Shown piece by piece: positions 1-41,712 of a DNA stretch of 64,000 nucleotides; positions within the stretch are counted from its first letter, which is position 1, and every line of letters starts with the position of its first letter. The translations under genes and the position numbers were made by a program. The stretch spans positions 1 to 64,000 of the forward strand of contig NZ_QOLC01000098.1 of NCBI RefSeq assembly GCF_003333325.1, written 5' to 3'. Origin of the DNA: Candidatus Ulvibacter alkanivorans. GTDB lineage: Bacteria > Bacteroidota > Bacteroidia > Flavobacteriales > Flavobacteriaceae. A model generated the notes under the pieces. That model did no database searches. It was not told the origin of the DNA and worked only from the letters and a program-made list of their open reading frames with translations.

Positions 1-1060
1 ATGTTGGCAGGCATGATCGCACCAACTCCTCCCTCAGCATCAGCCTGAGAGGTGTGATAGGTCAAATCTACATTGACCAACGTACCCAAAATCTCCGAAT
101 CCTTACTCGTTAAATCAAACTCCTCAACACCATCCTGATCATTGTCACAAATAAAATAATCAGAAATAGGATCTGAAATCTCAGGAGATTGGTTGACTCG
201 CAGTATAAGTTCAACGATATTAAAACAATCCGGACTGTTTATATTTTCCACACGTGCAAAAACCGAATCTTGACCGGCTACTCCATTAGTATAAGTGGTA
301 GGGTTCGCAATTGCAATTGTTCCTGCTTGTGCTAACGCAAATGTTTCGTAATAGATAACAACTGCGTTTGGATCACCACCGGTGATCTCGTTATCCTTTG
401 TGGTTAGGTCGAATTCTGCAAACCCGTCATATGGAATGTCATCACATATTTCATAAGGTGTTGGCACATTAGCATTTGGAGCCACAAAAATAGTTACGAC
501 AAAACTATCGGTCGCAAAACAAGCTCCAGGACTCATTGTATTCTCCACTCGTACGAAAATTGTTTCCGAAGGAGCCGCTACATCATAAGGTGTAGGCAAT
601 GGATTTGCTCCTGAATCAGCTTCCATTTGAGAATTATGATAGGTCACTGTAAACTGAGATGCCGGCTGTCCGTTAAGCGCTTCAGCATCCTTTAACAAAG
701 GTAAGTTTAAAGATACGAATCCGTCAGAATCTTCATCACAAAGATCATCAATGTCGGTCATTGGACCTGCGGTTGCAGGTTCAAATCTTATAAAGAACGA
801 ATTTGTATCGAAACAGTTACCCGATAAATCTTCAATTCGCACAAATATCTCTTCCTGAGGTGGTGTCGCTATTGGATACGCATTGTCGGGAGTGATAGGT
901 GCATTCCCGGTACCGGCGTCTGCTGCAGAATTGTGATACGTAATATTGAATTGCGCCGAATTCTGAGCTCCTAGAACTACAGGATTATTTAGCGTCAGAT
1001 CGAATATGCCCATATTGGTACCATCGTCACATTGGAACAGATCGTCAGGCTGATTGGCTA
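1..1060 (-). repeat. Tandem ~98-residue protein repeats (about 295 nt period)
   Basis: Four copies of an acidic Cys-Asp motif (YFICDNDQDG, YEICDDIPYDG, DLCDEDSDG, FQCDDGTNMG) are encoded with their Cys codons near 148, 445, 739 and 1030. That is a spacing of 291-297 nt. Each is followed by FDLT-like residues and, about 40 residues later, by TYHxSxxDA. The copies are diverged at DNA level, so the array is old. It continues past the window edge. Confidence 0.75.
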
Positions 1061-2297
1061 CCGGTTGTGGAAAAAAGTTGATTTCTATACTATCTGAAAT
1101 AAGACAAGTAGGATCTGCCGGATCAAAGGCTTCAACTGTATAAGTTCCCGAATTTGGAGCCGTAACCGTAAATGTAAAATCGTCTATTGTACTAGGTCCT
1201 TGCGACACTCCGTTATAGAACCACTCATAAGAAATACCCGGCATTCCGGCATCAGCGTTTAACACTATATCCGAATCGTCACAAGTATCAATGTCCGGCC
1301 CAAGATCAACGCTAAAAGGCGCCACAGAGCTCACATTCACATCATCGGTAAGTACAACAACATCTCCGTTACAAGTATTCGTATAGGTAACACGGGCAGT
1401 AAATGTTTCGGTCCCGGATACACATACATTTAATGTAGGTGAAGTACCAATAACAGTTCCCGTAGAGTCTAACCATTCAAAAACATATGTTGGAGGTCCT
1501 ACAGGACTAAAGCTCCAAGCTTCATTGTTCGTTGTCCATGGTGAATCGGAAGTGTTTCTTCCCGGTGGTACATAAGCAGTATCTCCTGCATCATTTTGGA
1601 TACCTACAGCTGCATTTCCACTATTCCAAGTCGTACATACAGGCTTATCCTGAATGTAGATCTCAATTACATTAGAAAATTCATAGAACACGGCCATATG
1701 GGTCGCGGTCAAGTTATTACAACTAAAATAGGGTACGTTAAAGTATGAAACCACTAAAACGCGGTTTGGGAAAGTCCCTAGCACTTCATACCCAATCTCT
1801 TCGGTAGTTCCCACCGATGGATCGATATCGTGCACAGGTGTAAACACATTGGCTTCTCCTAGTGTTGGATTGGTATTATTGGGAAGGTTCTCAGAGAAAG
1901 ACCAACCGTTGGAAGTATCTCCCGGATCCACGTCAAATCGAAGTACTCCGTTCGAGCCAACTTGAAATTCGGTTTCCAAGTTTCCGAAGAAACAAAAATC
2001 GAAAGGCAAATTATCGACTACCGACCAGCGATCGTCTTGATTTGGGTTCAATTGGTTCGCCAATCCGTCAAATGGAAAGGGAGGATTGTAAGGCACAGCA
2101 TCCACTGTGTAATTCGAGCCGGAAGTATCGAATGTCTCTAAAAAGGTCGCTGTAATATTTGTACAACTACCTGAAGTACAGTCGATTGTTACATCGGGTC
2201 CGGCATCAACAAAGAGTGAACCTGGACCTTGTGCCAAGGCTAGAAATGGAACAATAAGTAGGATTACTAAGGCAATGTAGGGGGAATTTTTCTTCAT
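1..2297 (-). CDS. Secreted multidomain repeat protein, cut by left window edge
   Basis: The gene runs off the left edge, so only about 765 N-terminal residues are visible. The start is the ATG read leftward from 2297, followed by a signal peptide (MKKN, then the hydrophobic stretch ILLIVPFLALA). Residues 25-320 form a Cys- and aromatic-rich region. Around 320-400 comes an Ig/PKD-like segment (LGPDIDTCDDSDIVL, then YEWFYNG). After that, four repeats of about 98 residues each carry a CDxDxDG...FDLT motif and a TYHNSxxxA motif. In flavobacteria this layout is normal for cell-surface proteins ending in a type IX secretion (type B) sorting domain, but that end is outside the window. The ligand is unknown; adhesion is a guess. 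Confidence 0.8.
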   Translation of the reverse strand, partial: MKKNSPYIALVILLIVPFLALAQGPGSLFVDAGPDVTIDCTSGSCTNITATFLETFDTSGSNYTVDAVPYNPPFPFDGLANQLNPNQDDRWSVVDNLPFDFCFFGNLETEFQVGSNGVLRFDVDPGDTSNGWSFSENLPNNTNPTLGEANVFTPVHDIDPSVGTTEEIGYEVLGTFPNRVLVVSYFNVPYFSCNNLTATHMAVFYEFSNVIEIYIQDKPVCTTWNSGNAAVGIQNDAGDTAYVPPGRNTSDSPWTTNNEAWSFSPVGPPTYVFEWLDSTGTVIGTSPTLNVCVSGTETFTARVTYTNTCNGDVVVLTDDVNVSSVAPFSVDLGPDIDTCDDSDIVLNADAGMPGISYEWFYNGVSQGPSTIDDFTFTVTAPNSGTYTVEAFDPADPTCLISDSIEINFFPQPVANQPDDLFQCDDGTNMGIFDLTLNNPVVLGAQNSAQFNITYHNSAADAGTGNAPITPDNAYPIATPPQEEIFVRIEDLSGNCFDTNSFFIRFEPATAGPMTDIDDLCDEDSDGFVSLNLPLLKDAEALNGQPASQFTVTYHNSQMEADSGANPLPTPYDVAAPSETIFVRVENTMSPGACFATDSFVVTIFVAPNANVPTPYEICDDIPYDGFAEFDLTTKDNEITGGDPNAVVIYYETFALAQAGTIAIANPTTYTNGVAGQDSVFARVENINSPDCFNIVELILRVNQSPEISDPISDYFICDNDQDGVEEFDLTSKDSEILGTLVNVDLTYHTSQADAEGGVGAIMPAN

Positions 2298-2401
2298 AAT
2301 TCATAGGTATGTGCGCGAAATTTAAGAATTTTTTATGAAATCGGTATAACATTGCCTTTAAAAATAGTGACACCATTTTTTCATGGCATATCACGAATCC
2401 G

Positions 2402-2409
2402 TATCTTTG
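2402..2409 (+). promoter_or_regulatory. Bacteroidetes -7 element (TATCTTTG) of folE
   Basis: TATCTTTG matches the TAnnTTTG -7 consensus of the Bacteroidetes primary sigma factor. Transcription would begin near 2415. That lies after the upstream in-frame ATG at 2383 and before the ATG at 2443, so it decides the folE start. No clear -33 TTG was seen. Confidence 0.6.
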
Positions 2410-2442
2410 CAGCCTGTATGTAACAATACACACTTAATAATT

Positions 2443-3120
2443 ATGGATTTAGAGAAACAATTAAAGGAAATAGAAGCATTGGGAAATGACCATGTTGGTA
2501 CTGCAACCGACACGCCCTTAAGAACAGATGCTTTTGACCTTAGCGATATAGAAAAAATTGCGAGCATCAAAGAGGATGTAAAAAGTATAATGCACACCTT
2601 AGGGCTTGACCTCACAGATGACAGTTTGAAAGGAACCCCTACACGTGTAGCCAAGATGTTCGTGCAAGAAATCTTCGGTGGTCTTCATCCCGATCGCAAA
2701 CCTAAGGCTTCTACTTTCGACAATAAATACAAGTATGGTGAGATGTTGGTAGAAAAGAACATCACACTATACTCTACTTGCGAACACCACTTATTACCTA
2801 TCGTTGGAAAGGCTCATATCGCCTATATTTCGAACGGCACGGTGGTAGGCCTTAGTAAAATGAACCGCGTGGTCGACTACTTCGCAAAAAGACCACAGGT
2901 TCAAGAACGTTTAACGATGCAGATCGTAAAAGAATTACAACAAGTATTGAATACAGACGATGTTGCCTGCGTGATCGATGCCAAGCATCTTTGCGTCAAT
3001 TCGCGAGGAATTCGCGATATAGACAGCAGCACGGTAACGAGTGAGTTTGGCGGTAAATTCAAGGAGCCTGAAACGCGCCGAGAATTTTTGGACTACATCA
3101 ATCTCGATACCGATTTTTAA
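2443..3120 (+). CDS. folE: GTP cyclohydrolase I (type I)
   Basis: The enzyme converts GTP to 7,8-dihydroneopterin triphosphate, the first step towards tetrahydrofolate and, in some bacteria, tetrahydrobiopterin or queuosine. It has 225 residues, the usual family length. The zinc site is visible: Cys113 and His116 in STCEHHLLP and Cys184 in [10 protein letters not shown]. The C-terminal SRGIRD...TSEFGG signature is complete. The ATG at 2443 was chosen because the protein then begins MDLEKQL and the -7 promoter element at 2402-2409 lies between it and the upstream in-frame ATG. cysS follows after 20 nt, so the two are probably co-transcribed. Confidence 0.95.
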
Positions 3121-5789: not shown

Positions 5790-6287
5790 ATGAAGAAACT
5801 AATAATTTCGGCTGCAGTCGCAGCTCTATGTTGCGGTGTTATAAGCTGTAAAGACAAGCAGCAAGAACGCCCCGTACTAACCAAAGAGGTAACTTTTACT
5901 AAAGAAGGGGAACTTACCCTTAAAAAAGCACAAACCGATTCGATCGTCGCGCAACTTGATATTGAGATCGCAGATGATGCCTATGAAACCGAAACGGGCT
6001 TGATGTATCGAAAATCGATGCCAAACAACCAAGGCATGTTATTTATTTTCGACGAGGAACTTACCCGTGGATTTTATATGAAGAACACCGAGTTTTCGAT
6101 AGATATAATTTTCTTTAACAAAGACAAGGAGATCGTAAATATTCAAAAAAATGCCAAGCCTTTCGACCCTACATCTTTACCTTCGGAAGGACCCGCGCAG
6201 TATGTATTAGAAGTTAACGCAGGCTTAAGTGATGCATGGGGCTTGGAAAAGGGTGATTATATAACTTGGACCAATACTTCAGAATAA
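5790..6287 (+). CDS. DUF192 domain lipoprotein
   Basis: Lipoprotein of 165 residues with a signal peptide ending at Cys20 (GVISC). Residues 60-160 form a DUF192 domain: ETGLMYRKSMPNNQGMLF, RGFYMKNTEFSIDIIF, then YVLEVNAG. DUF192 proteins are small beta-rich extracytoplasmic proteins whose biochemical role is not settled. The ATG follows the lgt stop with no gap, and a strong bidirectional hairpin terminator follows, so this is the last gene of the folE-lgt run. Confidence 0.88.
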   Translation: MKKLIISAAVAALCCGVISCKDKQQERPVLTKEVTFTKEGELTLKKAQTDSIVAQLDIEIADDAYETETGLMYRKSMPNNQGMLFIFDEELTRGFYMKNTEFSIDIIFFNKDKEIVNIQKNAKPFDPTSLPSEGPAQYVLEVNAGLSDAWGLEKGDYITWTNTSE

Positions 6288-6305
6288 AAATTAAAAGTTA
6301 GACAT

Positions 6306-6345
6306 AAAAAAAAACGCCGGATCAGATGACCCGGCGTTTTTTTTT
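6306..6345. terminator. Bidirectional intrinsic terminator between DUF192 gene and secDF
   Basis: A run of A, the stem ACGCCGG (6314-6320), a 10-nt loop and CCGGCGT (6331-6337) are followed by a run of T. The symmetric A/T tracts let it end both the forward lgt-DUF192 transcript and the reverse secDF transcript. Confidence 0.9.
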
Positions 6346-6361
6346 ATTTCCGAAGAACTGC

Positions 6362-9300
6362 TTATTTAACAGCTTCTTCTAATTCTTCTTCTTTCTTTTC
6401 TGAAAGATCGATTCCTCTTTTTCTAACTGTATCGTAGAACACCGGCGTTGCGATGAACAACGATGAGTAGGTACCTACAAGTACACCAACGATCAATGCG
6501 AAAATAAGTCCGCGAATCGATTCTGCACCAATAAAGAAGATACACAACAATACGATCAATGTCGTGATCGAAGTATTCAAGGTTCGACTTAAGGTGCTGT
6601 TTAATGCACTGTTGATTATACGGTTCATTTTCCAACTGCTGTGTTCGTTAAAGAATTCTCGAATCCTATCGAATACAACCACCGTATCGTTCAAGGAATA
6701 ACCAATAACGGTCAAGATCGCAGCAATAAATGACTGGTCGATCTCCATACTAAACGGCATGATATTGTGTGTAAGGGAGAAGATTCCCAATACGATCAAC
6801 ACATCGTGGAATACGGCGGCTACCGCACCCAAACTGAACTGCCATCTTCTAAATCGAAGGAGGATGTATAAGAATACCACGATTAAGGAACCTAATACGG
6901 CCCAGAACGATGCTTTTTTAATATCATCGGCAATGGTTGGACTTACTTTATAATATTCCATTCGACCAGCAACCTTGCTATCGTCATCTTCTTTAAAGTC
7001 TTCGAAGGTCATACCGGATGGCAAGTAAGGTTTTAATCCGTCATACAACATTTGTTCGATCTCATTATCAACCTCAGTTCCGCTTTCTTCAACTTTGTAT
7101 TTTGTAGTAATCTTTAATTGATTGTCCCCACCGTAGGTTTTCGCTTCGGCACTTCCATACACTTCAATTAGGTCATTTTGCACATTAAGTGCGTTTACGT
7201 CCTTGTCGAATCGAACAGTATATGTACGTCCACCAACGAAATCAACCCCTTGGTTAAGACCAACAGTAAATAAAGAACCAATACTCAATACCAATAAGAT
7301 ACCTGAAATCACGTAGGCTATTTTACGCTTTCCGAGGAAATTGATATTTACATTCTTGAACAAGTTCTTGGTAACAGCCGTAGAACATGGTAATGATTTT
7401 CCGTTTTTAGTATAGCTATCGATGAACAGACGCGTAATAAAGATCGCTGTAAACAATGAGGTTGCAATACCAATCAATAAGGTCGTTGCGAATCCTTTAA
7501 TAGGACCCGTTCCGAAGACCAATAAAATAAGACCTGTAAGACCGGTTGTAATGTTCGCATCGAGAATTGATGACAAGGCATTATTAAATCCGTCCTTGAT
7601 AGCGTCTTTTTGTGCTTTTCCTTTGGCAAGTTCTTCGCGAATTCGCTCAAAAATAAGCACGTTCGCATCGACCGAAATACCAATCGTCAATACGATACCT
7701 GCAATACCAGGTAGCGTTAATACTGCACCTAGACCAGCAAGGATTCCGAAGATAAACACAATATTCACCACAAGAGCCACATCGGCAAACAAACCGGCTC
7801 TACCGTAGTAGAAGATCATCCATATTAGCACAAAGCCTAAGGCAATTGCAAACGATAAAATACCACTATTGATCGCTTCTTGACCTAAGGTTGGTCCTAC
7901 TACTTCCGCCTGAATAATATCGGCAGAAGCAGGTAACTTACCTGCACGTAATACATTTGCAAGATCTTGACCTTCGGTAATGGTAAAATCTCCAGAGATC
8001 TGACTTCTTCCTCCGGCGATAGGACCTGTGGTCACACCAGGAGCAGAATATACGATGTCGTCAAGAACAATTGCGATCTGACTTTGGTTGTTGTAGGCCT
8101 TTCCGGTCATGTCTTCCCAGATACGTGCTCCAACTCCATTCATTTGCATATCGACTACCACGCGACCTACTTGGTCGAAGCTTTGCTGTGCATCTACAAC
8201 GACACCACCACCTAATGGCGGTTCGGCGTCACGATTTTCAACACGTAAAGCATATAGACTTGTAAGTTCTTCTTCTAATTCTTCATTGTATTCTGAAAGG
8301 CCCCATACAAACTTTGTATAGCGCTGATCGTTTGGAAGTAATGATCGTACTTCCGGCATACGTAAATAACTATTGATCTTAGCTGTGTCCTGGACCGCAA
8401 AGGTTGCCAATACAGGTTGACCCGGTGCTCCGGGTGATACCATCAACGAAAAGATCGGGTTTGCAACTTCTGCATCTAGTGACGCATCTTCTGCATCTTC
8501 TCCGTCTAACAGTGCGTTGATCTCTTCATCTTCAGTTTGCGTAGAATCTTGTGCTACTTCTTCCTGAGTTTCTTCTTTTACTAAATTTTTTAGTTTTTGG
8601 TCTGCCTCAAATAAAAAGTTTTGGATCTCATCGAACTTATACACTTCCCAAAATTCCAATTGAGCAGTACTAGTTACTAAGTTAACCACACGCTCTACAT
8701 CTTTTGCTCCAGGCAGTTCGACCAAGATACGGGCCGAATTTCCTAAACGCTGAATGTTTGGTTGTGTTACTCCAAACTTATCGATACGCTTTCTAAGCAC
8801 TTCGAAAGCCGAGGTAATAGACTCATCTATTTTTCTTGAAATAATTGGCTGTACTTCTTCATTGGTCATTGAAGAATTAATATCCTCTTCTAAATTCTTA
8901 TTAAAAAAGATATTTGAAGAAGCTAGTTTATTTTCACCCGGCAATTCTTCAAAAGCCTGAAAAAACAACTCTAGGTAGGTTTCTTGCGAATTTTTCTGAA
9001 GCTCTTCTGCATTTTGTAATGCTTGATTAAACGCAGGATCCTTGGTATTGTTTGCCAACCCTCTTAGGATGTCCTGAACAGACACCTGAAGAATCACGTT
9101 CACACCACCTTTAAGATCGAGCCCTTTGTTTAATTCTTTTTCTTTTGCAGTCTTGTAATCGATTCCCAGCAAGATTTCTTCTCCACTAATCGAATCGAGG
9201 TATCTAGCCTCGGCTGCCGCCCGCGCATCGGGCTGAGTTTCAGGATATGCATTCTTTGCAAACGCCTTTGCATCATCTTCTACCTTGTTTGCGATATATG

Positions 9301-9373
9301 TAAACGATAATTGGTACAAACTTACCAATCCGAAGAGGATCGCAAATACTGTAATGAGTCCTTTATTTTGCAT
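6362..9373 (-). CDS. secDF: Fused protein-export membrane protein SecDF
   Basis: Proton-driven accessory of the SecYEG translocon, with SecD and SecF in one chain of 1003 residues as is usual in Bacteroidota. The N-terminal SecD half has LDLKGGVNVILQV near residue 85, a large periplasmic P1 region and GISVDANVLIFERIREE. The SecF half has GVDFVGGRTYTVRF and SLNDTVVVFDRIREF. A 16-residue longer reading from 9421 is rejected, because the protein family begins at MQNKGLITVF and a promoter with -33 and -7 elements overlaps that extension. An acidic low-complexity insert (about residues 270-310) sits in the SecD periplasmic region. Confidence 0.96.
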   Translation of the reverse strand: MQNKGLITVFAILFGLVSLYQLSFTYIANKVEDDAKAFAKNAYPETQPDARAAAEARYLDSISGEEILLGIDYKTAKEKELNKGLDLKGGVNVILQVSVQDILRGLANNTKDPAFNQALQNAEELQKNSQETYLELFFQAFEELPGENKLASSNIFFNKNLEEDINSSMTNEEVQPIISRKIDESITSAFEVLRKRIDKFGVTQPNIQRLGNSARILVELPGAKDVERVVNLVTSTAQLEFWEVYKFDEIQNFLFEADQKLKNLVKEETQEEVAQDSTQTEDEEINALLDGEDAEDASLDAEVANPIFSLMVSPGAPGQPVLATFAVQDTAKINSYLRMPEVRSLLPNDQRYTKFVWGLSEYNEELEEELTSLYALRVENRDAEPPLGGGVVVDAQQSFDQVGRVVVDMQMNGVGARIWEDMTGKAYNNQSQIAIVLDDIVYSAPGVTTGPIAGGRSQISGDFTITEGQDLANVLRAGKLPASADIIQAEVVGPTLGQEAINSGILSFAIALGFVLIWMIFYYGRAGLFADVALVVNIVFIFGILAGLGAVLTLPGIAGIVLTIGISVDANVLIFERIREELAKGKAQKDAIKDGFNNALSSILDANITTGLTGLILLVFGTGPIKGFATTLLIGIATSLFTAIFITRLFIDSYTKNGKSLPCSTAVTKNLFKNVNINFLGKRKIAYVISGILLVLSIGSLFTVGLNQGVDFVGGRTYTVRFDKDVNALNVQNDLIEVYGSAEAKTYGGDNQLKITTKYKVEESGTEVDNEIEQMLYDGLKPYLPSGMTFEDFKEDDDSKVAGRMEYYKVSPTIADDIKKASFWAVLGSLIVVFLYILLRFRRWQFSLGAVAAVFHDVLIVLGIFSLTHNIMPFSMEIDQSFIAAILTVIGYSLNDTVVVFDRIREFFNEHSSWKMNRIINSALNSTLSRTLNTSITTLIVLLCIFFIGAESIRGLIFALIVGVLVGTYSSLFIATPVFYDTVRKRGIDLSEKKEEELEEAVK

Positions 9374-9404
9374 GCTAGCTTGTTTAGATAATTTTAAAAA
9401 CGTG

Positions 9405-9435
9405 CAAATATAGGTTTTCAAAAAGGAAATGACAA
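9405..9435 (-). promoter_or_regulatory. secDF promoter: -33 TTG, 20-nt spacer, -7 TATATTTG
   Basis: Read on the minus strand, TTG (9433-9435) is followed after 20 nt by TATATTTG (9405-9412). This is a full match to the Bacteroidetes primary promoter. The predicted start of transcription, near 9398, supports the ATG at 9373 as the secDF start. Confidence 0.75.
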
Positions 9436-9460
9436 TTATTTTCTTTTGAAAAGTTTAACA

Positions 9461-32155: not shown

Positions 32156-33697
32156 TTACAATTTTTCGAATGTTAGTGAATCGGTTCCTCCGTTTCCACC
32201 ACTTATATCTTGCAATTCAACAAGCACATCGGTGAAATTGAGTACATCCCAATCATCTTCGAGTTCATCTAATGGGAAGGCCGTACCAAAGTTCAGGACC
32301 AAATTCAGTTCATTATCGTCAATGATCACGCTCCATGTTCCATTGGTCGTACCATTGCTATCAGTTGCCGTGGCAGTACCATCGGAGTTAAAATCGAAAA
32401 CGAAATCGGTGTAATCTGCCGTCTGGTCGTTACCGTCGTCTACGTAACTTGCCACTTTCCACTCACCGTCTTCCAAGGTATCCATTAGATCCTGAACATC
32501 GTTTCCTCCTCCACCGTTGCATCCTGTAACGGGTTGTCTTCCGAAGTTCAACAAATGAGTTCCACCATTACCGCCACTAATATCTCGTAGGTTAAAATGC
32601 TGCGTATCAAACTCAAGTACATCCCAATCGTCGTTCAGATCTTCAAAAGGATCATCTTGTCCGGAAAACTCGTAACTCAATACTAGTTTTAATTGATTGT
32701 CATCTATAATTGCGCTCCACGTTCCATTAACCGTATCTGTATTGCTAACTGCCGTAGTGCTTCCGTCTGCATTGAAATTAAATTCATAGGCTGCATAATC
32801 GCAGGTTTCGTCATCACCGTCGTCGTTAGATACATTTACATACCATGCACCGTCTGTGATCGTTTGGCTAAATTGATCTACGTCATTGTTTCCGCCACCC
32901 GTAGTTGGTGTACGTTCGAAGGTAAGTAGGTCTGTGGTGCCATCACCACTTATATCTTGCAATCGAATGATCTCATCGGTGGCTTCTAGGATTTCCCAAT
33001 CTTCGTCCAATTCATCGAAAGGGTCTGTTTCACCAAAGAATAGTACAAGGTCCGGTGTATCGTCATCGTTTATACTCCAATTTCCGGATACCGTGTTGGA
33101 GCCATTGGTTGCTTGGGCCGTTTGATCGGTATTAAAAGTAAATTCGTAGCCTCCAAAATTGTCGGTTTCTTCTACGTCATCAAAATAATAAGTAACATAC
33201 CAAACACCCGTCGTAAGATCGGTCTCGAGTTGTTGTGTATCTATGGTATTACTAGTTTCATCTTCGGTACAGCTAGTGATGATATTTTGCAATTCTGAAT
33301 TATCTGTCACTTCCACAGTTGTACCGTCGTTTAATATAATCGACACAGGGAACTGTAGTGAAATGGACTGGTTGTCACCAAGTCCTGATAGGAATTGAAA
33401 CAAATCCGAATCACTTATAATAGTTTCGGTACCGGTTTGGTCTCCGTTCTCATCGTAGATTAGTATAGTGATTGGATAATCGAAGCCTGCACAGTCTATC
33501 GCATTTTCATTTTCTGAAGTGTCCTGTGACACACTTACTAATAGATTGTACAACTGCGATCCTGTTGCTATGGTTTCAACAGTTTGATCTTGATCGGTAA
33601 AATCATCTTCATTTCTAGTGCAAGATGAAAGCACTATCGCGACACTTAATAGGAAGCAATATATAATGCTTTTTGTTAGTTTGGTTTTCATTTTCAT
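32156..33697 (-). CDS. Surface lipoprotein with one Cys-bounded module and three lipocalin-like repeats
   Basis: Lipoprotein of 513 residues; lipid Cys in VLSSC, followed by TRNEDDF, an acidic stretch like the lipoprotein export signal that sends flavobacterial lipoproteins to the cell surface. Residues about 65-145 form a module that starts and ends with Cys (DCAGFDYPITILIY to IITSC) and contains two similar halves. Three tandem repeats of about 105 residues follow (encoded near 33216-32905, 32870-32530, 32480-32160). Each has GxWyV, a YEFxF strand, a G-W strand and LxDDWDVL...DISG...LTFER. A paralogue of the gene at 34029. An ECF-type promoter element lies at 33717-33747. The ligand is unknown. 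Confidence 0.85.
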   Translation of the reverse strand: MKMKTKLTKSIIYCFLLSVAIVLSSCTRNEDDFTDQDQTVETIATGSQLYNLLVSVSQDTSENENAIDCAGFDYPITILIYDENGDQTGTETIISDSDLFQFLSGLGDNQSISLQFPVSIILNDGTTVEVTDNSELQNIITSCTEDETSNTIDTQQLETDLTTGVWYVTYYFDDVEETDNFGGYEFTFNTDQTAQATNGSNTVSGNWSINDDDTPDLVLFFGETDPFDELDEDWEILEATDEIIRLQDISGDGTTDLLTFERTPTTGGGNNDVDQFSQTITDGAWYVNVSNDDGDDETCDYAAYEFNFNADGSTTAVSNTDTVNGTWSAIIDDNQLKLVLSYEFSGQDDPFEDLNDDWDVLEFDTQHFNLRDISGGNGGTHLLNFGRQPVTGCNGGGGNDVQDLMDTLEDGEWKVASYVDDGNDQTADYTDFVFDFNSDGTATATDSNGTTNGTWSVIIDDNELNLVLNFGTAFPLDELEDDWDVLNFTDVLVELQDISGGNGGTDSLTFEKL

Positions 33698-33716: not shown

Positions 33717-33747
33717 ATAAAACAATCCAGATGTAAAAAACCCTACC
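33717..33747 (-). promoter_or_regulatory. Shared ECF-type promoter element, copy A
   Basis: On the minus strand GGTAGGG (33741-33747), 16 nt, then TGTTTTAT (33717-33724), 20 nt before the ATG of the lipoprotein gene ending at 33697. The same two boxes with the same 16-nt spacing occur at 35808-35838 and 36408-36438 next to a sigma factor gene. I infer a promoter read by that sigma factor. Confidence 0.7.
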
Positions 33748-33779
33748 TTGCCAGCGACTTTATTTAAGAAAAAGTTTCC

Positions 33780-33817
33780 GAAGAAAAAAGTCCGATATAT
33801 AGGATACATCGGACTTA
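33780..33817 (-). terminator. Intrinsic terminator after lipoprotein 2 and the pseudogene
   Basis: On the minus strand AAGTCCGAT (33808-33816) pairs with ATCGGACTT (33788-33796), followed by a T-run. It closes the transcript of the 34029-35777 gene and the decayed gene after it, and insulates the next lipoprotein gene, which has its own promoter. Confidence 0.8.
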
Positions 33818-33858
33818 CAACTAAAGATAAAATAAGGGAGTTACATTTTATTGATGCG

Positions 33859-34017
33859 CTATAATTGCGTAATTTCCCATGTGCCGCTTCTTGCAATTGC
33901 TGCAAATAATATTTGCATTCGTGTTGTTGGGTTGGGGATTAAGATTATCCACGCTAGTACACGCAGCAAAAAGCAACACACAGGTCATCAACAAAACAAC
34001 ATCATACTCTTTTTCAT
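33859..34017 (-). pseudogene. Decayed third lipoprotein gene fragment (frameshifted)
   Basis: Starts with ATG at 34017, 11 nt after the stop of the upstream lipoprotein gene, but reads only MKKSMMLFC before TGA. One base added in the TTTT run near 33990 would join MKKSMML to LLMTCVLLFAACTSVDN, a perfect lipoprotein signal peptide with lipobox FAAC. A second frame change after NTNAN would give SGTWEITQL, like the GTWxVT start of the neighbouring lipocalin-like repeats, then TAG. I infer a broken paralogue. A homopolymer sequencing error could explain the first shift but not the short end. Confidence 0.55.
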
Positions 34018-34028
34018 AGGTATGTTCT

Positions 34029-35777
34029 TTAGTTTTTCTTTATAATTAGGGTGTCTTCAATATTACCATTACTATCGCGAATGATAAAAGTGACCGAAGT
34101 ATCGTTAAACTGTAGCACCTTATAGGCATCATCATCTGCTCCGTTTAGCGGACTATCCATGTCGAACTCGAAATTGAGTTCTTCTCCTACTACGGTAACG
34201 ATCCAAATTCCCGTGACCGTCTCGCTACCATTTGTCGCACTCACTGTTTCATTTGTATTGAACGTAAAATCAAATCCGTTAAAATCGGAAGTTTCATCAT
34301 CGCCATCATCTAAAAAGGTATCTACGTACCAAGTTCCCGCTTCCATAACTGTACGCAATTCTTGTGGATCTGGCGTTGAACCACCGCCCGTTGGTTCACG
34401 TTCAAAAGTTAAAAAGTCATCGTTGTCTCGTAGCCTAATTATACTATCATTCGATTCTAACACATCCCAATCGTCATTTAGGTCTCCCAATGGATTTCCA
34501 CTACCTGAACTGTCGAAATTAAGCACCAAGGCTAAATTACCATTGTCGTTCTCCACGCTCCAAAAACCATCGATGCTGTTGTTCCCATTTTCTGCGATCG
34601 CTGTTCCATTAGCAAAGTAGGTAAACTCAAAACCTTCGTAATTTGAAGTTTCATCGTCGCCGCTATCATCAAACAGTGTTACAAACCACGTACCGGTGGT
34701 TAGATCTTGAATAAATTCGTTTACTTCTTCATTAGAACCGTCGTTATTTGGAGTGCGTTCAAAAGTTAGGAAATCGGTGCTGCCATCGCCGCTTAGATCA
34801 CGAAGTTGGAATATTTCATCGGTTGCTTCCAAGATCTCCCAGTCTTCATCCAGTTCATCGAAAGGAGCATTGTTTCCGAAGAACAGTGTTAATTCTACGG
34901 GTGTTTCCGAAGTAAACATCCACGAACCGTTCACCGTGTTCGTATCGGATGAGGCCTGAGCTGTGTTATTTGCAGCAAAACTAAATTCATACCCTTGAAA
35001 TGCATCGGTTTGGTCGGTATCGTCAAAATAATATGTGATATACCAAACACCTGTGGTTAGGTCATCTTCAAGTTGTGTGGTATCGATTGGATCATCGTCG
35101 TCTTCACAATTTGCTTCGGAAAGAACGGTAAGCAATTCGGCATTGGTTGTTACTTGAACCGACTGCTCGTTAACCAGCACTGTAATTGGAAAATCGACAG
35201 CAATAAAATCGTCATCGTCTAAATTGTTTAAAAAATCGTACAATTGTGGCTGACTATTAATCGTTACCGTACCCGTTTGTTCTTGCGCCTGATTGTAGGT
35301 GAAAAAAGTAATGGGGTAAACAAAATCGACACACGCAATGGCTTCATCAAAATCGGTTTCGCAATTCGCGATGACCGTATCCAGTTCGGTTTGAGAATTT
35401 ATTTCGACCTGAGAGAAATCGGCCAATATAACGGTAATTGGAAATTGTATTTCTAAGGTATCGGTATCATTTGGAAATTGATCGAAAATCGCTTCGACTT
35501 GCTCGATATCATCTTCATCCTGAATGAGCACCTCTTGGCCGTTCGCAAAAACGGTGATTGGAAGCACCACGGTGACACAATCGCTGCCATCTATAATATT
35601 GTCTAATTCCCCTGCTTGTAAGGCACTACGCACCAACAGGTCGCCCAAGACAGAATTTGCAGTGATCGTTTCATCATCTGTTTCGTCTATAAACTCTTCT
35701 TCTTCCTTTTGGCAACCAGCGAGTAGCACCATAAAAAAGAGCAGTAATAAAGTGATTAAGTGTCTATTTTGTTTCAT
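34029..35777 (-). CDS. Surface lipoprotein with two Cys-bounded modules and three lipocalin-like repeats
   Basis: Lipoprotein of 582 residues. The signal peptide ends VLLAGC and is followed by QKEEEEF, which closely matches the Q-K-(D/E)2 surface-export signal described for Capnocytophaga lipoproteins. Two modules of about 75 residues follow, each bounded by Cys (DCVTVVLPITVF to VIANC; ACVDFVYPITFF to SEANC), each with an internal two-fold repeat of PITV...eL. Three lipocalin-like repeats of about 105 residues come next (from about 35070 to 34032), the third being the most diverged. Repeat 1 resembles repeat 1 of the paralogue at 32156 (DEDWEILEATDEI identical) more than its own neighbours. 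Divergent to the ECF sigma gene. Confidence 0.85.
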   Translation of the reverse strand: MKQNRHLITLLLLFFMVLLAGCQKEEEEFIDETDDETITANSVLGDLLVRSALQAGELDNIIDGSDCVTVVLPITVFANGQEVLIQDEDDIEQVEAIFDQFPNDTDTLEIQFPITVILADFSQVEINSQTELDTVIANCETDFDEAIACVDFVYPITFFTYNQAQEQTGTVTINSQPQLYDFLNNLDDDDFIAVDFPITVLVNEQSVQVTTNAELLTVLSEANCEDDDDPIDTTQLEDDLTTGVWYITYYFDDTDQTDAFQGYEFSFAANNTAQASSDTNTVNGSWMFTSETPVELTLFFGNNAPFDELDEDWEILEATDEIFQLRDLSGDGSTDFLTFERTPNNDGSNEEVNEFIQDLTTGTWFVTLFDDSGDDETSNYEGFEFTYFANGTAIAENGNNSIDGFWSVENDNGNLALVLNFDSSGSGNPLGDLNDDWDVLESNDSIIRLRDNDDFLTFEREPTGGGSTPDPQELRTVMEAGTWYVDTFLDDGDDETSDFNGFDFTFNTNETVSATNGSETVTGIWIVTVVGEELNFEFDMDSPLNGADDDAYKVLQFNDTSVTFIIRDSNGNIEDTLIIKKN

Positions 35778-35807
35778 TGTAGTGGCTATTTGAAGCCTTG
35801 GTCACTA

Positions 35808-35838
35808 ATAAAACAGTTATAATTAAAAATCCCCTACC
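35808..35838 (-). promoter_or_regulatory. Shared ECF-type promoter element, copy B
   Basis: On the minus strand GGTAGGG (35832-35838), 16 nt, then TGTTTTAT (35808-35815), 31 nt before the ATG of the lipoprotein gene ending at 35777. Same boxes and spacing as copies A and C. Confidence 0.7.
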
Positions 35839-35842
35839 TAAA

Positions 35843-35870
35843 TTGATAAAAAGTTTTTCGTTTATATTTG
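35843..35870 (+). promoter_or_regulatory. Housekeeping promoter of the ECF sigma gene (TTG, 17 nt, TATATTTG)
   Basis: TTG (35843-35845) and TATATTTG (35863-35870) fit the Bacteroidetes primary promoter with a 17-nt spacer. The sigma gene ATG at 35892 lies about 15 nt after the predicted start. The sigma gene therefore seems to be made constitutively, while its likely targets carry the other element. Confidence 0.6.
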
Positions 35871-35891
35871 GACCCTGACCATTGCTAATGT

Positions 35892-36401
35892 ATGAAAGAA
35901 AAAGAAAACGTTTGCGAAGAACAAATCTTTAATAAAATTTACGACGATCACGGACAATCGTTGTGGCGTTTTATTTTCTTTAAATGTGGAAACGAAGCGC
36001 AAGCCGATGATCTGGTTCAAGATGCCTTTATAAAATTATGGCAACATTGTGCTAAGGTAACGGTTCAAAAATCGAAATCGTTTTTGTACACCATTACCAA
36101 CAATGCATTTTTAAATGAAGTAGCACACAAAAAGGTAGTGTTAAAACATGCCAAACAACAGCCCGACAAATACAACCACCAATCGCCCGAGTTTATTCTG
36201 GAAGAAAAGCAATTTCAAGATAAACTTCAGAATGCGATCGCCAATCTCACAGAAGCGCAACGCACTGCATTTTTGCTCAACAGGATTGAAGGAAAAAAAT
36301 ATCGTGAGATCGCAGAATTATTAGATATTTCGGTAAAGGCAGTGGAAAAACGAATGAGTTTAGCATTGGCCTCTCTTCGGAAAGAGATCGATTCAATTTA
36401 A
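35892..36401 (+). CDS. ECF-type RNA polymerase sigma factor
   Basis: Sigma-70 family, extracytoplasmic-function type, 169 residues. Region 2 is seen in FNKIYDDHGQSLWRFIFFKCGNEAQADDLVQDAFIKLWQ, and region 4 in LTEAQRTAFLLNRIEGKKYREIAELLDISVKAVEKRMSLALASLRKE. Followed by fecR and a TonB receptor, it is the transcription factor of a cell-surface signalling unit. The bipartite element upstream of fecR and of both nearby lipoprotein genes is the likely target; the sigma gene's own promoter is of housekeeping type. Confidence 0.93.
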   Translation: MKEKENVCEEQIFNKIYDDHGQSLWRFIFFKCGNEAQADDLVQDAFIKLWQHCAKVTVQKSKSFLYTITNNAFLNEVAHKKVVLKHAKQQPDKYNHQSPEFILEEKQFQDKLQNAIANLTEAQRTAFLLNRIEGKKYREIAELLDISVKAVEKRMSLALASLRKEIDSI

Positions 36402-36407
36402 AATAAA

Positions 36408-36438
36408 AGTAGGGTAAACAGCTATAGAACTGTTTTAA
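36408..36438 (+). promoter_or_regulatory. Shared ECF-type promoter element, copy C (fecR)
   Basis: AGTAGGG (36408-36414), 16 nt, then TGTTTTAA (36431-36438), 18 nt before the fecR ATG. It also contains the dyad AAACAG/CTGTTT. The element splits the sigma gene from fecR, so fecR and the receptor can be switched on separately from the sigma gene. Confidence 0.7.
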
Positions 36439-36456
36439 GCATGAATAGACCACATC

Positions 36457-37365
36457 ATGGAAAAAAAATACTTACTACATAGTTATTTAAACGGCAAGGC
36501 CACCAAAGACGAGATCGCTGCATTGAAAGCAGATCCCGAATACGCCGCCTATGTACGAATTGCAGATACAGCGAAAACATTCGATACACCTGCGTTCAAT
36601 TTCGAAAAAAACAAGAACAAGATCGAAGCCGGTATTGCCGGTGCAAGCAAGGTGCGCAATTTAAACCCAGTGAGAACATTCCTTAAAGTAGCTGCTGCGA
36701 TCGCCGTACTAGCTGTTGGGTATTGGTTTATAAGCACCATGGACACTTCCATGAGCACCGGGATTGGAGAAAAAATTTCTGTTTCGCTTCCAGACGCTTC
36801 CGAAGTAATTTTAAATGCAAATTCAGAGATCACCTATTCTAAGGGTAATTGGGAGAATGAGCGAAACGTTACGCTCAACGGAGAAGCATTCTTTAAAGTA
36901 AATAAGGGAAGTACATTTCAAGTAAGTACCTCGCTGGGCGATGTTCGTGTATTGGGAACTCAATTTAACGTATATTCACGAGATCGTTTTTTTAATGTAA
37001 GTTGTTACGAAGGTTTGGTAAGTGTGGCATTTAATGACACTTTGATAAAATTACCGGCCGGCACTAAACTAAAAGTGGAAGAGGGTACGTTAGTTATGTA
37101 CAATACCACCAGTAATACGGTTCCAAACTGGACCAAGAACGAAAGTTCGTTCGAAAATGCAACCTTACAAACTGTGATTAGCGAGTTGGAACACCAATAC
37201 CCAATTACAATAAACACACAATTACAAGGAACCAACAAACGATTTACAGGGAGTTTTACCCATTCCGATCTCGAGCTGGCACTCACATCGGTTTGCGACC
37301 CACTACAATTAACATATAGTATAAATGAAGGGGAAGTAACAATTTATGCAAAAGGCAGCCCGTAA
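36457..37365 (+). CDS. FecR-family anti-sigma factor
   Basis: A protein of 302 residues. Residues 1-75 are the cytoplasmic sigma-binding part, followed by one membrane helix (VAAAIAVLAVGYWFI), a FecR domain (EKISVSLPDASEVILNANSEITY, NVTLNGEAFFKVNKG, VRVLGTQFNVYSRD) and a C-terminal DUF4974 domain (about 235-300: FENATLQTVISELEHQYPITI, FTGSFTHSDLELAL). It should hold the sigma factor until the TonB receptor signals. The receptor gene begins 20 nt before its stop codon, so the two are translationally linked. Confidence 0.93.
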   Translation: MEKKYLLHSYLNGKATKDEIAALKADPEYAAYVRIADTAKTFDTPAFNFEKNKNKIEAGIAGASKVRNLNPVRTFLKVAAAIAVLAVGYWFISTMDTSMSTGIGEKISVSLPDASEVILNANSEITYSKGNWENERNVTLNGEAFFKVNKGSTFQVSTSLGDVRVLGTQFNVYSRDRFFNVSCYEGLVSVAFNDTLIKLPAGTKLKVEEGTLVMYNTTSNTVPNWTKNESSFENATLQTVISELEHQYPITINTQLQGTNKRFTGSFTHSDLELALTSVCDPLQLTYSINEGEVTIYAKGSP

Positions 37366-39901
37366 GCACGCAATTATTGCTGCGTTTCTTTTTTTCACAT
37401 TTCTTAGTGGACCGGTCTCCTATTGCCAAAATACGACTTTAGAACCTCTCATCGATATTATTAAATTGCTTGAAGACACTTATGGTGTAAGCTTTTCGTA
37501 TGCTCCTAATGATATCCAGAATGTGCTGGTAGCTACCCCGTCTGACGCCCTGTCTTTAACCGAAGCGATCGCTTACCTCAACAGCACTACGCCCTTTCAA
37601 TTTACCGCAATAGACACGCGTTATATAACCGTAGTTAAAACCCCTACAGCTAATTTGTACTGCGGAAAGATCATCGATGCCTCCACCGGATTACCAATGG
37701 TTGGAGCTACCGTAATTGCCGATACGAACGATTTTGCAACGACTACTAATACTGAAGGTGAGTTCTTTATACCTGAAGCAGCCAGGACCAAAGCCTTCAC
37801 CGTTACTTTTATTGGGTTTACGCCCCTAACTATCCCGGTGGGGACGCTAACTAAAGAGTGTACTTCCTTGCTCATGCTGCCCACCATCGCTACATTAGAC
37901 GAGGTGCTAATTACAAGCTATTTTACCAAAGGTATCGATAAGTTGAACGATGGTTCTATCGTCTTAAATAGTTCCGACTTCGGACTTATTCCCGGGCAGG
38001 TGGACAACGATATTTTACAAATTGTGCAGGCGTTGCCGGGTGTAGAAAGTGTGGATGAAACTATTTCGAACATAAACATTCGAGGGGGAACACATGCAGA
38101 AAACCTTATTCTTTGGGATGATATCAAAATGTACCAAAGCGGTCATTTCTTCGGACTTATTTCCGCATTTAATCCTGATCTAACGCAAAGCGTTTCGATC
38201 TATAAAAATGGAACACTACCCAGGTATGGAGAAAGTGTAAGCAGTGTGATCCACATGAAGTCTGATGACACCATTACGCGCGATCTTACCGCAGGAGCTG
38301 GTTTTAACTTTATAAATGGAAGCGCTTTTGTACGTATGCCCATCTCTAAGAAGGTAGGGTTGCAAATTAGTGGAAGACGCTCGTTGAACGACCTGTTAGA
38401 AACACCTGTTTACGACACCTACTCCTCACGAATTTTTCAAGATACAGAGATCTTTAACAGTTCGAACGATGCCACTATGATCACGGCCGATGAAGATTTT
38501 AGATTCTACGATTTTAGCACCAAATTGTTATGGGATGCTTCGGAAAAAGATCGAGTTCGGTTTAACTTTTTAACCATCGACAATCGCTTAGATTTTACCG
38601 AAACCATTGCAAACTCGCAGCAATCTGAAACAAGTAGTTTATCACAACGTAGCTTGGTGGGCGGAGTGAACTGGGAACGAAACTGGAATGACTCTTTTAA
38701 GAGTTACCTCATGACCTATGGAACGTATTATGCCTTAGATGCGCTCAATCGTGACATTTTTACTACTCAAGAGTTACGTCAAGAGAACGAAGTAATAGAA
38801 ACCGGAGTAAAAGTAGAAGGCTTGTATGCTATTTCTAAAAAGTTTCAGTTACGGTCGGGATATCATTTTACCGAAACAGGCATTGCCAATACCCAGGATG
38901 TGAATTTACCACGCTTTCGAAATTTTGAAAAAGACGTGTTGCGAACCCATTCCGTTTTTGGCCGAACTACTTACACTTCCGAAGAAAAGAACACGATCAT
39001 TAATGCCGGACTTCGTTTAAACTATTTCACCAAACTTGATCAGGTCTTAGTAGAACCCCGATTGAGCGTGCATCAAAAAATAAGCAACGGACTCGCCATA
39101 GAACTTCTGGGAGAATTTAAGAGTCAGACCACCACTCAACGTATCGATTTTGAAAGTGATTTCTTAGGGGTTGAAAAAAGGAGATGGGTTCTAGCTACGG
39201 GAGACGAGATACCGGTTTTACAGAGCAAACAAGGTAGTTTTGGAGTTATCTATCAACGTAAAAAGTGGTTTATTGAAACAACGGCCTATTATAAATTTGT
39301 GAACGGAATCTCCAGTAGAAATCAGGGATTTCAGAATCAATTTCAGTTTGTAGAAGCGATTGGAAGTTACACCAACTATGGACTCGAATTGGCGGTAAAC
39401 AAAAAATGGGGGGATTTTAGTTCATGGATCAGTTATACCTATGCACAAAACGATTATGAATTTCCATCTCTTGTTCCCAGTGAATTTCCAAATAACTTAG
39501 ACATTCGTCATGCAGCATCACTGGCCGGATCGTATACGCTAGACCGGTTTAAGGTGGCCTTGGGTATAAATTGGCATACCGGGAAACCATTTACGCTTCC
39601 ATTGTCTGACGGACAAAATGCTTCGAATGAACCAGCAGATCCTATCTTGTACGACACCCCAAATAGCAAACGCTTACCCGATTATTTTAGAACCGACCTC
39701 TCTGCCGAATATCGTTGGAATGTTTCAGAAAAAATAGACGCCAAGATCAACGTGGCAATTCTAAATATCCTGGATACCGACAACACCTTGAACATTCGGT
39801 ACGCGCGCTTAGAAAATGAAAACGGTTCTACACGCATCAACCAAATTGAACAAAAATCGCTTGGACTAACGCCCAACGTATCGGTTCAGGTATTGTTCTA
39901 A
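37346..39901 (+). CDS. TonB-dependent receptor with STN signalling and carboxypeptidase-like domains
   Basis: Outer-membrane transducer of 851 residues. After the signal peptide comes an STN domain (residues about 35-105: IIKLLEDTYGVSFSYAPNDIQNV, LTEAIAYLNSTTPFQF), which contacts FecR. Next are a carboxypeptidase-regulatory-like domain (GKIIDASTGLPMVGATV) and a plug (IVQALPGVESVDETISNINIRGG, ENLILWDDIKMYQSGHFFG). The 22-strand barrel ends in NVSVQVLF with a terminal Phe. It overlaps fecR by 20 nt. No SusD gene is adjacent, so it is not a standard SusCD glycan system. No siderophore or cobalamin gene is nearby, so the ligand is open. Confidence 0.92.
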   Translation: MQKAARKHAIIAAFLFFTFLSGPVSYCQNTTLEPLIDIIKLLEDTYGVSFSYAPNDIQNVLVATPSDALSLTEAIAYLNSTTPFQFTAIDTRYITVVKTPTANLYCGKIIDASTGLPMVGATVIADTNDFATTTNTEGEFFIPEAARTKAFTVTFIGFTPLTIPVGTLTKECTSLLMLPTIATLDEVLITSYFTKGIDKLNDGSIVLNSSDFGLIPGQVDNDILQIVQALPGVESVDETISNINIRGGTHAENLILWDDIKMYQSGHFFGLISAFNPDLTQSVSIYKNGTLPRYGESVSSVIHMKSDDTITRDLTAGAGFNFINGSAFVRMPISKKVGLQISGRRSLNDLLETPVYDTYSSRIFQDTEIFNSSNDATMITADEDFRFYDFSTKLLWDASEKDRVRFNFLTIDNRLDFTETIANSQQSETSSLSQRSLVGGVNWERNWNDSFKSYLMTYGTYYALDALNRDIFTTQELRQENEVIETGVKVEGLYAISKKFQLRSGYHFTETGIANTQDVNLPRFRNFEKDVLRTHSVFGRTTYTSEEKNTIINAGLRLNYFTKLDQVLVEPRLSVHQKISNGLAIELLGEFKSQTTTQRIDFESDFLGVEKRRWVLATGDEIPVLQSKQGSFGVIYQRKKWFIETTAYYKFVNGISSRNQGFQNQFQFVEAIGSYTNYGLELAVNKKWGDFSSWISYTYAQNDYEFPSLVPSEFPNNLDIRHAASLAGSYTLDRFKVALGINWHTGKPFTLPLSDGQNASNEPADPILYDTPNSKRLPDYFRTDLSAEYRWNVSEKIDAKINVAILNILDTDNTLNIRYARLENENGSTRINQIEQKSLGLTPNVSVQVLF

Positions 39902-39933: not shown

Positions 39934-41712
39934 TTACATACGTTCGGGCACGTCGATACCCAACAATGAAAAGGCCGTTTTAATCACTTCCCCAACTGCG
40001 CCCGATAACCGTATACGAAACTGTTTTTCTTCTTCTGTTTCTGCCGCGAAAATTGGCACATTTTGATAGAACGAATTAAATTCCTTTACAAGATCGTAGG
40101 TATAATTTGCGATCAATGCCGGGCTGTAGTTTTCGGCAGCCAGCTGTATGGTCTCCGGAAAAAGCTGCAACTGCTTTAACAGCTCCTTCTCCTTTTGATG
40201 TAGGTCTACAGCTTTATGTGTCTCAAATGAAACTGAAGTTTCATCGGCCTTACGTAAAATTGATTGAATACGTGCGTAGGTATATTGAATAAATGGACCG
40301 GTATTCCCTTGAAAGTCTACACTTTCTTCCGGGTTAAAGAGAATCCTCTTCTTTGGGTCGACCTTAAGTATATAATATTTTAAAGCCCCTAACCCAATGG
40401 TGTGGTAGAGTTTTTGTTTTTCTTCTTCGGAAAAGTCGTCGATCTTTCCAAGCTCTTCGGAAATAGCTCCGGCTGTATTCGCCATCTCGCTAATTAGATC
40501 GTCGGCATCGACCACTGTACCTTCACGGCTTTTCATTTTACCCGAAGGCAGGTCCACCATTCCATAACTAAGATGATAGAGGTGCTCGGCCCAGGCGTAG
40601 CCTAATTTTTTTAAAATCAAGAATAACACTTTAAAGTGATAATCTTGCTCGTTCCCAACGGTATAGATCATTCCCGTTACATCGGGGTGATCCTTTACGC
40701 GCTGAATGGCCGTTCCTATATCCTGTGTCATATAGACCGCAGTACCATCACTTCTTAAGACCAGTTTTTCATCCAAGCCTTCATCGGTAAGATCACACCA
40801 TACAGAACCGTCATCTTTTTTAAAGAACACACCATTGGCGAGCCCTTCTTCAATATTGTCTTTCCCTAGTAAATACGTCTGACTCTCATAGTAATAACTA
40901 TCAAAATCAACCCCTAAAGAATCGTAGGTAGTTGCGAATCCGTCGTACACCCAACTATTCATTTTGCTCCACAGCGCCACAGTTTCCGGATCTCCGGCTT
41001 CCCATTTGCGGAGCATTTCTTGAGCTTCTACTAAGGATGGTGCTGTAGTTTTGGCTTCCTCTTCGGGTGTGCCTTGCGCGATGGCTTGTGCTACTTCTTC
41101 TTTATATACTTGATCGAACTTTACATAGTAGTTTCCTACCAGCTTGTCACCTTTTAACCCGGTTGAATCTGGAGTTTCTCCGTTTCCGAAGCGTTTCCAA
41201 GCCAACATACTTTTACAGATATGGATCCCTCTATCGTTGATGATCTGAGTTTTGTACACTTTTTTACCGGCGGCTTCCACTATTTGTGAAACACTATGCC
41301 CCAGCAAAATGTTTCGAATGTGCCCTAAATGCAGTGGCTTATTCGTGTTGGGAGAGGAAAATTCGACCATAACAGCTCCATCAGCTTGCGAATGCCTTCC
41401 GAAGTGAGAAAAATCGGTTACAGAATTAAAGAATGTCAAGTAATACGCATCACTTAACACCAAGTTTAAAAATCCTTTTACTACATTAAAATCGGCTACC
41501 GCGTCCACATGTTCTACCAGATAGGCTCCAATGGTTTCACCAATCTGCACCGGATTGCCTTTCACCACTCGCAACATTGGGAAAACCACAACGGTAATAT
41601 CGCCTTCGAAGTCTTTCCGTGTCGCTTGAAACTCTACCGTTTCTAAGGTGGCATCGAATCGATCCTGTACCGCTTTAATAATTTTTTCTGAAAGCGTTTG
41701 CTGCAAATTCAT
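39934..41712 (-). CDS. argS: Arginyl-tRNA synthetase
   Basis: Class I synthetase charging tRNA-Arg, 592 residues. The N-terminal Add-1-like domain is followed by SSPNTNKPLHLGHIRN with the HIGH motif as HLGH, IINDRGIHICKSM, and KMKSREGTVV in place of KMSKS, as is usual for ArgRS. The C-terminal DALR anticodon-binding domain ends in VPERM. It converges on the TonB receptor gene with 32 nt between and no clear terminator. Confidence 0.97.
   Translation of the reverse strand: MNLQQTLSEKIIKAVQDRFDATLETVEFQATRKDFEGDITVVVFPMLRVVKGNPVQIGETIGAYLVEHVDAVADFNVVKGFLNLVLSDAYYLTFFNSVTDFSHFGRHSQADGAVMVEFSSPNTNKPLHLGHIRNILLGHSVSQIVEAAGKKVYKTQIINDRGIHICKSMLAWKRFGNGETPDSTGLKGDKLVGNYYVKFDQVYKEEVAQAIAQGTPEEEAKTTAPSLVEAQEMLRKWEAGDPETVALWSKMNSWVYDGFATTYDSLGVDFDSYYYESQTYLLGKDNIEEGLANGVFFKKDDGSVWCDLTDEGLDEKLVLRSDGTAVYMTQDIGTAIQRVKDHPDVTGMIYTVGNEQDYHFKVLFLILKKLGYAWAEHLYHLSYGMVDLPSGKMKSREGTVVDADDLISEMANTAGAISEELGKIDDFSEEEKQKLYHTIGLGALKYYILKVDPKKRILFNPEESVDFQGNTGPFIQYTYARIQSILRKADETSVSFETHKAVDLHQKEKELLKQLQLFPETIQLAAENYSPALIANYTYDLVKEFNSFYQNVPIFAAETEEEKQFRIRLSGAVGEVIKTAFSLLGIDVPERM

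Follow-up and report, generated by a model that had tools for sequence, protein, structure and literature searches.

Which promoters does a FecI-type extracytoplasmic function (ECF) sigma factor of the Flavobacteriaceae read, and which genes would they place under its control? The question is raised by a stretch of 64,000 nucleotides (nt) from Candidatus Ulvibacter alkanivorans (contig NZ_QOLC01000098.1, positions 1 to 64,000; hereafter the window), in which the gene of such a sigma factor (35892..36401, plus strand, 169 amino acids (aa)) lies close to three copies of one bipartite sequence. These three elements are very probably promoters read by that sigma factor, and related sigma genes in related bacteria adjoin the same or a slightly altered switch. 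The predicted promoter layout consists of a -35 block RGTAGGG(T), a fixed spacer of 16 nt and a -10 block TGTTTTA.

A pattern search for RGTAGGG-N16-TGTTTTAW returned three exact matches in the window, in agreement with a preliminary description that had been made from the letters of the DNA. The predicted ECF-type promoter element 1, GGTAGGG-N16-TGTTTTAT, is located at 33717..33747 (minus strand) before the gene of lipoprotein 1, and element 2, which again reads GGTAGGG-N16-TGTTTTAT, is found at 35808..35838 (minus strand) before that of lipoprotein 2, divergent from the sigma gene. Element 3, AGTAGGG-N16-TGTTTTAA, occupies 36408..36438 (plus strand) between the sigma stop codon and fecR. The elements end 19 nt before the ATG of lipoprotein 1 (33697), 30 nt before that of lipoprotein 2 (35777) and 18 nt before that of fecR (36457), within the range of 18-31 nt given earlier. 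The exact-match expectation was 0.0 in 400 first-order simulated windows. No fourth copy had been noticed in that description, and none turned up for the 15-base pattern even with up to 2 mismatches, a tolerance at which the chance mean is 0.77 and three matches were reached in 5 of 100 shuffles; the shorter 13-base core has two extra places at gap 16 with 2 mismatches, starting at 6144 and 43456.

Sigma homologues were collected, 22 sequences were aligned, and the best 80 of 419 genome loci were taken, giving 81 loci together with the window (these loci and further stretches from relatives' genomes are cited below by L numbers). The 80 relative loci are mostly labelled Flavobacteriaceae or its genera, and L060 is labelled Saprospiraceae. 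When the strict form GTAGGG-N16-TGT[TC] was sought in the 170 nt that follow the sigma stop codon and, in divergent orientation, in the 320 nt upstream, it was observed downstream in 78 of the 81 loci, upstream in 59, on both sides in 58 and on either side in 79, versus none of 6370 random control windows of 178 nt from the same loci. The spacing of 16 nt accounted for 142 matches, and every other gap from 8 to 26 gave at most 2. Among the downstream misses, L033 and L051 possess GTAGGG followed by a GGTT-type -10. The element is common to many genera, and the order sigma-fecR-receptor recurs in the ten loci that were read; in most of them a divergent lipoprotein-like gene lies upstream. The preliminary description had proposed that the sigma factor reads the element and drives the receptor operon and the lipoproteins, and had named loss of the element in relatives that keep the genes as contrary evidence; the retention downstream and upstream supports the proposal.

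A profile of 137 sites from the 81 loci, in which GTAGGG and TGTY were required by the search, reads R-GTAGGG-T(95%)-A(86%)-A(67%)...TGT-Y-T-T-A. The flanking purine of the originally described motif was upheld (A/G at 97% of the sites), and its final W was not, for C occupies that position in 36%. Most spacer positions vary among the sites, and the spacers of the three copies in the window are unlike one another, which sustains the earlier judgement that they are not a simple duplication. A bias towards T-R-A-A at profile positions 34-37 suggests the transcription start site.

The connection between sigma factor and element is strengthened by paralogous sigma clades, in which altered elements occupy the downstream and the upstream position: GTAGGA-TGTT, TCAGGA-TGTT and ATAGGG-TGTC, as well as types such as TTGGGA and TCGGGA. 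These were found by using the diverged second sigma of L018 as a query in 40 genomes and fetching the surrounding stretches, with 1-6 matches per genome at E <= 1e-15. L018 itself harbors two sigma-fecR systems (816-3025 and 6110-9457) on a single contig, separated by about 6 kb, with GTAGGA beside one sigma gene and GTAGGG beside the other. Of the 82 first-set sigmas, a clade of 20 uses the form TGTC, and a single organism holds one locus with TGTC (L045) and another with TGTT (L074).

The covariation set comprised 127 sigma sequences from 126 genes, L051 and L217 being one gene with two starts, and an accepted element stands beside 120 of the 127. Where elements could be scored on both sides of the sigma gene (n=96), the -35 hexamer was the same in 85 and the fourth -10 base in 95. 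At sigma residue 156, S or H accompanies G at -35 base 6 in 95/95 cases and Y accompanies A in 25/25; at residue 153, K goes with GTA (102/106), R with ATA (5/5), Y with TCA (6/6) and H with three other forms. An element was accepted only with GG at -35 positions 4-5, and G or A was preferred at position 6; those choices thus lie outside the test. A match of residues 97-162 to residues 119-184 of Escherichia coli SigE (equal lengths, E 0.003, alignment not printed) would equate residues 153 and 156 with SigE S172 and F175 once chain tags, of inferred length, are taken into account. According to an excerpt of the structural literature, S172 and F175 of SigE contact the -35 DNA (PMC6713349).

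Two further candidate determinants did not hold throughout. Residue 155 (M/I) as the reader of -35 base 6 has one exception (I with G, L197 by eye), and residue 156 has none. For the -10 T/C switch, 80 of the 82 first-set sigmas were compared (two were set aside), and columns 68, 76 and 78 distinguish the 20 sigmas with TGTC from the 60 with TGTT; other clades break the pattern, and no single responsible residue emerged. It is somewhat more likely than not that the Flavobacteriaceae hold a set of diverged, non-autoregulated FecI-type sigmas, each paired with a particular variant of the split promoter with the spacer always 16 nt, and that the recognition-helix residues 153 and 156 read the -35 difference. 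The proposed set comprises GTAGGG-TGTT, GTAGGG-TGTC, GTAGGA-TGTT, TCAGGA-TGTT and ATAGGG-TGTC, each at two places, one between the sigma gene and fecR and the other upstream in divergent orientation.

Exact copies of GTAGGG-N16-TGTYNTA were counted in 68 genomes (19 + 49), all of them relatives' genomes and standing for 68 of the 80 loci. There were 68 copies in the 19 genomes and 170 in the 49 others (238 in total), versus 19 and 45 (64 in total) for a mirrored control pattern, and about a quarter of the matches may therefore be due to chance. Many copies at random genomic positions had been named beforehand as a finding that would speak against the proposal, and the relatives' genomes contain 1-11 each. 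The elements, their placement, conservation, fixed spacing and low number per genome, and their covariation with the sigma factor, all emerge from sequence comparison.

In relatives, the predicted regulon would extend to some distant genes. In the first set of genomes, 36 of the 68 matches lie away from the sigma locus (hand tally, complete list), and 6 of the 34 remote sites fetched, a sample free of hand-picking bias, fall within open reading frames (ORFs) of 388-1075 aa; ORFs of at least 90 aa take up about 84% of the sequence of the relatives' loci. In the second set, 60 remote sites were hand-picked among the matches listed and some coding-looking ones were skipped, a choice that favours the result that ORFs of at least 150 aa contain only 3 of them. 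An ORF of at least 60 aa begins within about 320 nt of 45 of these hand-picked sites and within 120 nt of 35. By a crude signal test, 34 of those 35 ORFs look exported (15 with a lipobox), compared with 180 of 426 control ORFs of at least 90 aa (40 with a lipobox). The recurrent remote targets in both sets are DGYY-repeat lipoproteins, plastocyanin-like and propeller proteins with type IX secretion system (T9SS) tails, small cytochrome-c-like lipoproteins (one below the Pfam cut-off) and YHYH proteins, and a VTC-domain protein was encountered once; some remote sites have no nearby ORF or precede unrelated genes. Long DGYY-repeat proteins with a twin-arginine (Tat)-like N-terminus by eye stand behind a GTAGGG-type element in L091, L108, L111, L222 and L253, and a lipocalin-like module follows the repeats in L091 and L108. 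At L114, L090, L223, L226 and L228, which belong to Flavicella genomes and the L033 host, the element precedes YHYH genes and once a VTC-domain gene (identified by Pfam in L114 and L090, by eye in L223, L226 and L228), hinting at a different regulon there.

The sigma gene itself appears to be transcribed differently. A probable housekeeping promoter, TTG-N17-TATATTTG, matches by sequence at 35843..35870 (plus strand), as the preliminary description had pointed out; relatives keep it in part, with TAnnTTTG occurring no more than 80 nt before the start of 49 of 82 sigma genes, versus 4% of shuffles. TAnnTTTG is the sigma-A consensus in Flavobacterium psychrophilum, according to an excerpt of PMC9723704. 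In the scan of the 80 relatives, none of the listed sigma-strand matches lies before the sigma gene, all being after the sigma stop codon. Sigma autoregulation is unsupported on both grounds, and the sigma gene is apparently not autoregulated.

Several observations weigh against the assignment of the three elements to this sigma factor. The triple in the window is by itself weak evidence because simulated windows give comparable triples: two 13-base split words with three gap-16 copies occur in the real window, and 0-3 in each of ten simulated ones; the significance therefore rests on position and on the relatives. There, 22 of the 81 loci have no strict upstream element, and at L073 neither side of the sigma gene shows a convincing one. 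(The gene at L073:8000-8516 encodes a Tenacibaculum sigma of the family whose region 2 is also unusual.) In the covariation set, seven of the 127 sequences (L033, L073, L205, L212, L213, L214 and L216) lack an accepted element; L205 shares 46% identity with the L018 second sigma, and L212-L216 share 30-32%. A copy placed like element 1, which sits 2.2 kb from the sigma gene in the window, was detected at 2.0-2.7 kb in just nine of the 80 relatives (L001, L002, L003, L005, L006, L007, L009, L011 and L078), and at L003 and L006 this copy instead precedes the gene of a small cytochrome-c-like lipoprotein. In the earlier assignment of both lipoproteins to one regulon, element 1 is a weaker point; the element of lipoprotein 2 is kept in 59 of 81 loci. 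In 8 of the 49 genomes and 2 of the 19, the matches do not exceed the mirrored control, and a TTG at matching spacing before TAnnTTTG is present in only 7 of the 82 sigma genes. Finally, the tree requires few changes, one at -35 base 6, three at residue 153 and seven at -35 bases 1-2, and the covariation is thus consistent support rather than many independent trials.

A chance repeat, for which the triples of the simulated windows could be cited, is barely conceivable: the homologous place is occupied in 78 of 81 loci versus 0 of 6370 control windows, which refutes chance for elements 2 and 3, and element 1 has its like-placed copies in the nine relatives. No more credit can be given to the notion that the three copies are relics of a local duplication of a lipoprotein promoter, devoid of regulatory meaning. 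The lipocalin-like make-up common to both lipoproteins would suit it, but the copies have unlike spacers and lie on both strands, relatives repeat the -35 and -10 blocks (required by the search) while most spacer positions vary, and conservation over 81 loci contradicts it. It is improbable, though less remote, that some other regulator, whether an activator, a repressor or another sigma factor, acts at the element and controls the locus by coincidence. Many genomes do encode more than one related sigma, which favours this idea; it is opposed by the two blocks with their fixed spacer just before start codons, by -35 changes that track the adjacent sigma's recognition helix, and by L045 and L074, where each locus of the same organism has its own form.

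A further alternative keeps the sigma factor as reader of the element and concerns FecR, and it is thus a variant of the preferred assignment rather than an exclusive rival: FecR would mainly serve as an obligatory co-activator, as it does in the Fec system of E. coli, and the fecR promoter would provide pure positive feedback. Pro- and anti-sigma roles are both described for FecR-type proteins in the portion of the literature consulted (PMC9249621), but the Has arrangement, which is closest in layout, has the anti-sigma factor HasS, and sequence cannot distinguish the two roles. The co-activator role is possible and rather doubtful; FecR is probably a brake rather than a needed co-activator.

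The genes of the locus are compatible with such a circuit. Pfam assigns regions 2 and 4 to the sigma protein (Sigma70_r2 at 16-80, Sigma70_r4_2 at 110-162) and no other conserved region, and its best NCBIfam model is TIGR02985 at 123.7 bits, below the cut-off of 126.4. The fecR gene (36457..37365, plus strand, 302 aa), encoding a presumed anti-sigma factor or co-activator, matches FecR (71.3 bits) and FecR_C (38.7 bits) above the Pfam cut-offs. It is overlapped by 20 nt by the start of the gene of a TonB-dependent receptor (37346..39901, plus strand, 851 aa), which displays an N-terminal FecR_C match followed by CarbopepD_reg_2, plug and barrel. FecR_C and STN share a fold. The FecR_C match, at receptor residues 33-96, is above the cut-off in the window and L004 and below it in L062, and the STN model was not reported; from this match we infer an STN-like signalling domain at the receptor N-terminus. 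On the opposite strand after the receptor lies a gene (39934-41712) which we take to be argS-like, and a similar gene follows in L016, L018, L029 and L049.

Lipoprotein 2 (34029..35777, minus strand, 582 aa) is modelled as small alpha/beta units followed by three lipocalin-like barrels; its whole chain gave poor matches in fold searches, single barrels resemble lipocalin-like proteins, and the Foldseek matches include transferrin-binding protein B with low TM-scores. Lipoprotein 1 (32156..33697, minus strand, 513 aa) contains lipocalin-like repeats, with weak Pfam matches to DUF4923 and GH43_C, both barely above the cut-offs. Between the two large genes, 33850-34020 (minus strand) is the remnant of a small lipocalin-type lipoprotein gene with a broken frame, unlike L004, where an intact small lipoprotein stands beside the large one.

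In the proposed mechanism, the sigma gene would be transcribed from its housekeeping-type promoter, and FecR would keep the sigma factor inactive as long as the signal is absent. Binding of a ligand to the TonB-dependent receptor would lead the receptor N-terminal domain to act on FecR, thereby freeing the sigma factor, which would transcribe fecR-receptor and the divergent surface lipoprotein genes, and in relatives some distant genes of exported proteins too. The output would be more receptor and lipoproteins, together with more FecR as a brake. Direct sigma binding, a start about 6-8 nt after the -10 block, the signal path and the inhibitory role of FecR are the inferred parts of this mechanism.

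The layout of this circuit appears to be like that of the Serratia marcescens Has system, composed of the sigma factor HasI, the anti-sigma factor HasS and the TonB receptor HasR. In the excerpts at hand, Has is described as a FecI-type sigma system without autoregulation, as proposed here, in which the anti-sigma and receptor genes are sigma targets with a common -35 sequence (PMC9249621). The corresponding trait here, known from sequence alone, is a predicted sigma-dependent promoter before fecR and none listed before the sigma gene. Has serves heme uptake with a hemophore and its promoter sequence differs from the window element, whereas the window locus has divergent lipocalin-like lipoproteins as predicted targets as well. 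E. coli FecI/FecR/FecA likewise combines an ECF sigma, FecR and a TonB receptor, whose N-terminal signalling domain would have a putative STN-like counterpart in the window, and fecIR is not autoregulated, according to the same excerpts (PMC9249621); fecIR is described there as one unit outside FecI control, whereas in the window a predicted sigma-dependent element splits the sigma gene from fecR.

Flavobacterial ECF-type promoters are also represented by the SM6 motif, derived from a start-site map of F. psychrophilum (Guerin et al. 2021); as excerpted, its -10 region contains a CGT box and its targets include T9SS genes (PMC9723704), whereas the window-type -10 is TGTT/TGTC with no CGT box. 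The authors of that study are quoted in the excerpt as noting that further ECF-controlled starts may await discovery (PMC9723704). Rhodius et al. 2013 similarly paired sigma subgroups with subgroup promoters and tested orthogonality; in the sections available, six FecI-like subgroups were left out of the promoter-motif analysis because they lack autoregulation, and a figure legend names one model for subgroups 5-10 (PMC3817407). Our literature searches, restricted to open-licence PMC papers, recognised no description of the element in a title or the opening lines of an abstract.

Promoter mining upstream of sigma genes skips FecI-like sigmas since they lack autoregulation, as the sections available indicate (PMC3817407). 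A promoter that sits between the sigma gene and fecR and before a divergent lipoprotein gene would thus offer a simple rule for reading regulons from sequence, and it would tie uncharacterised surface lipoproteins to a sensing receptor. Meanwhile, the paralogous clades provide natural covariation data on how ECF sigmas discriminate among -35 elements. If the proposed set of variants is true, the DNA code and the regulons of this sigma group would be readable from genome sequence, and the Flavobacteriaceae would hold a natural series of insulated sigma-promoter pairs.

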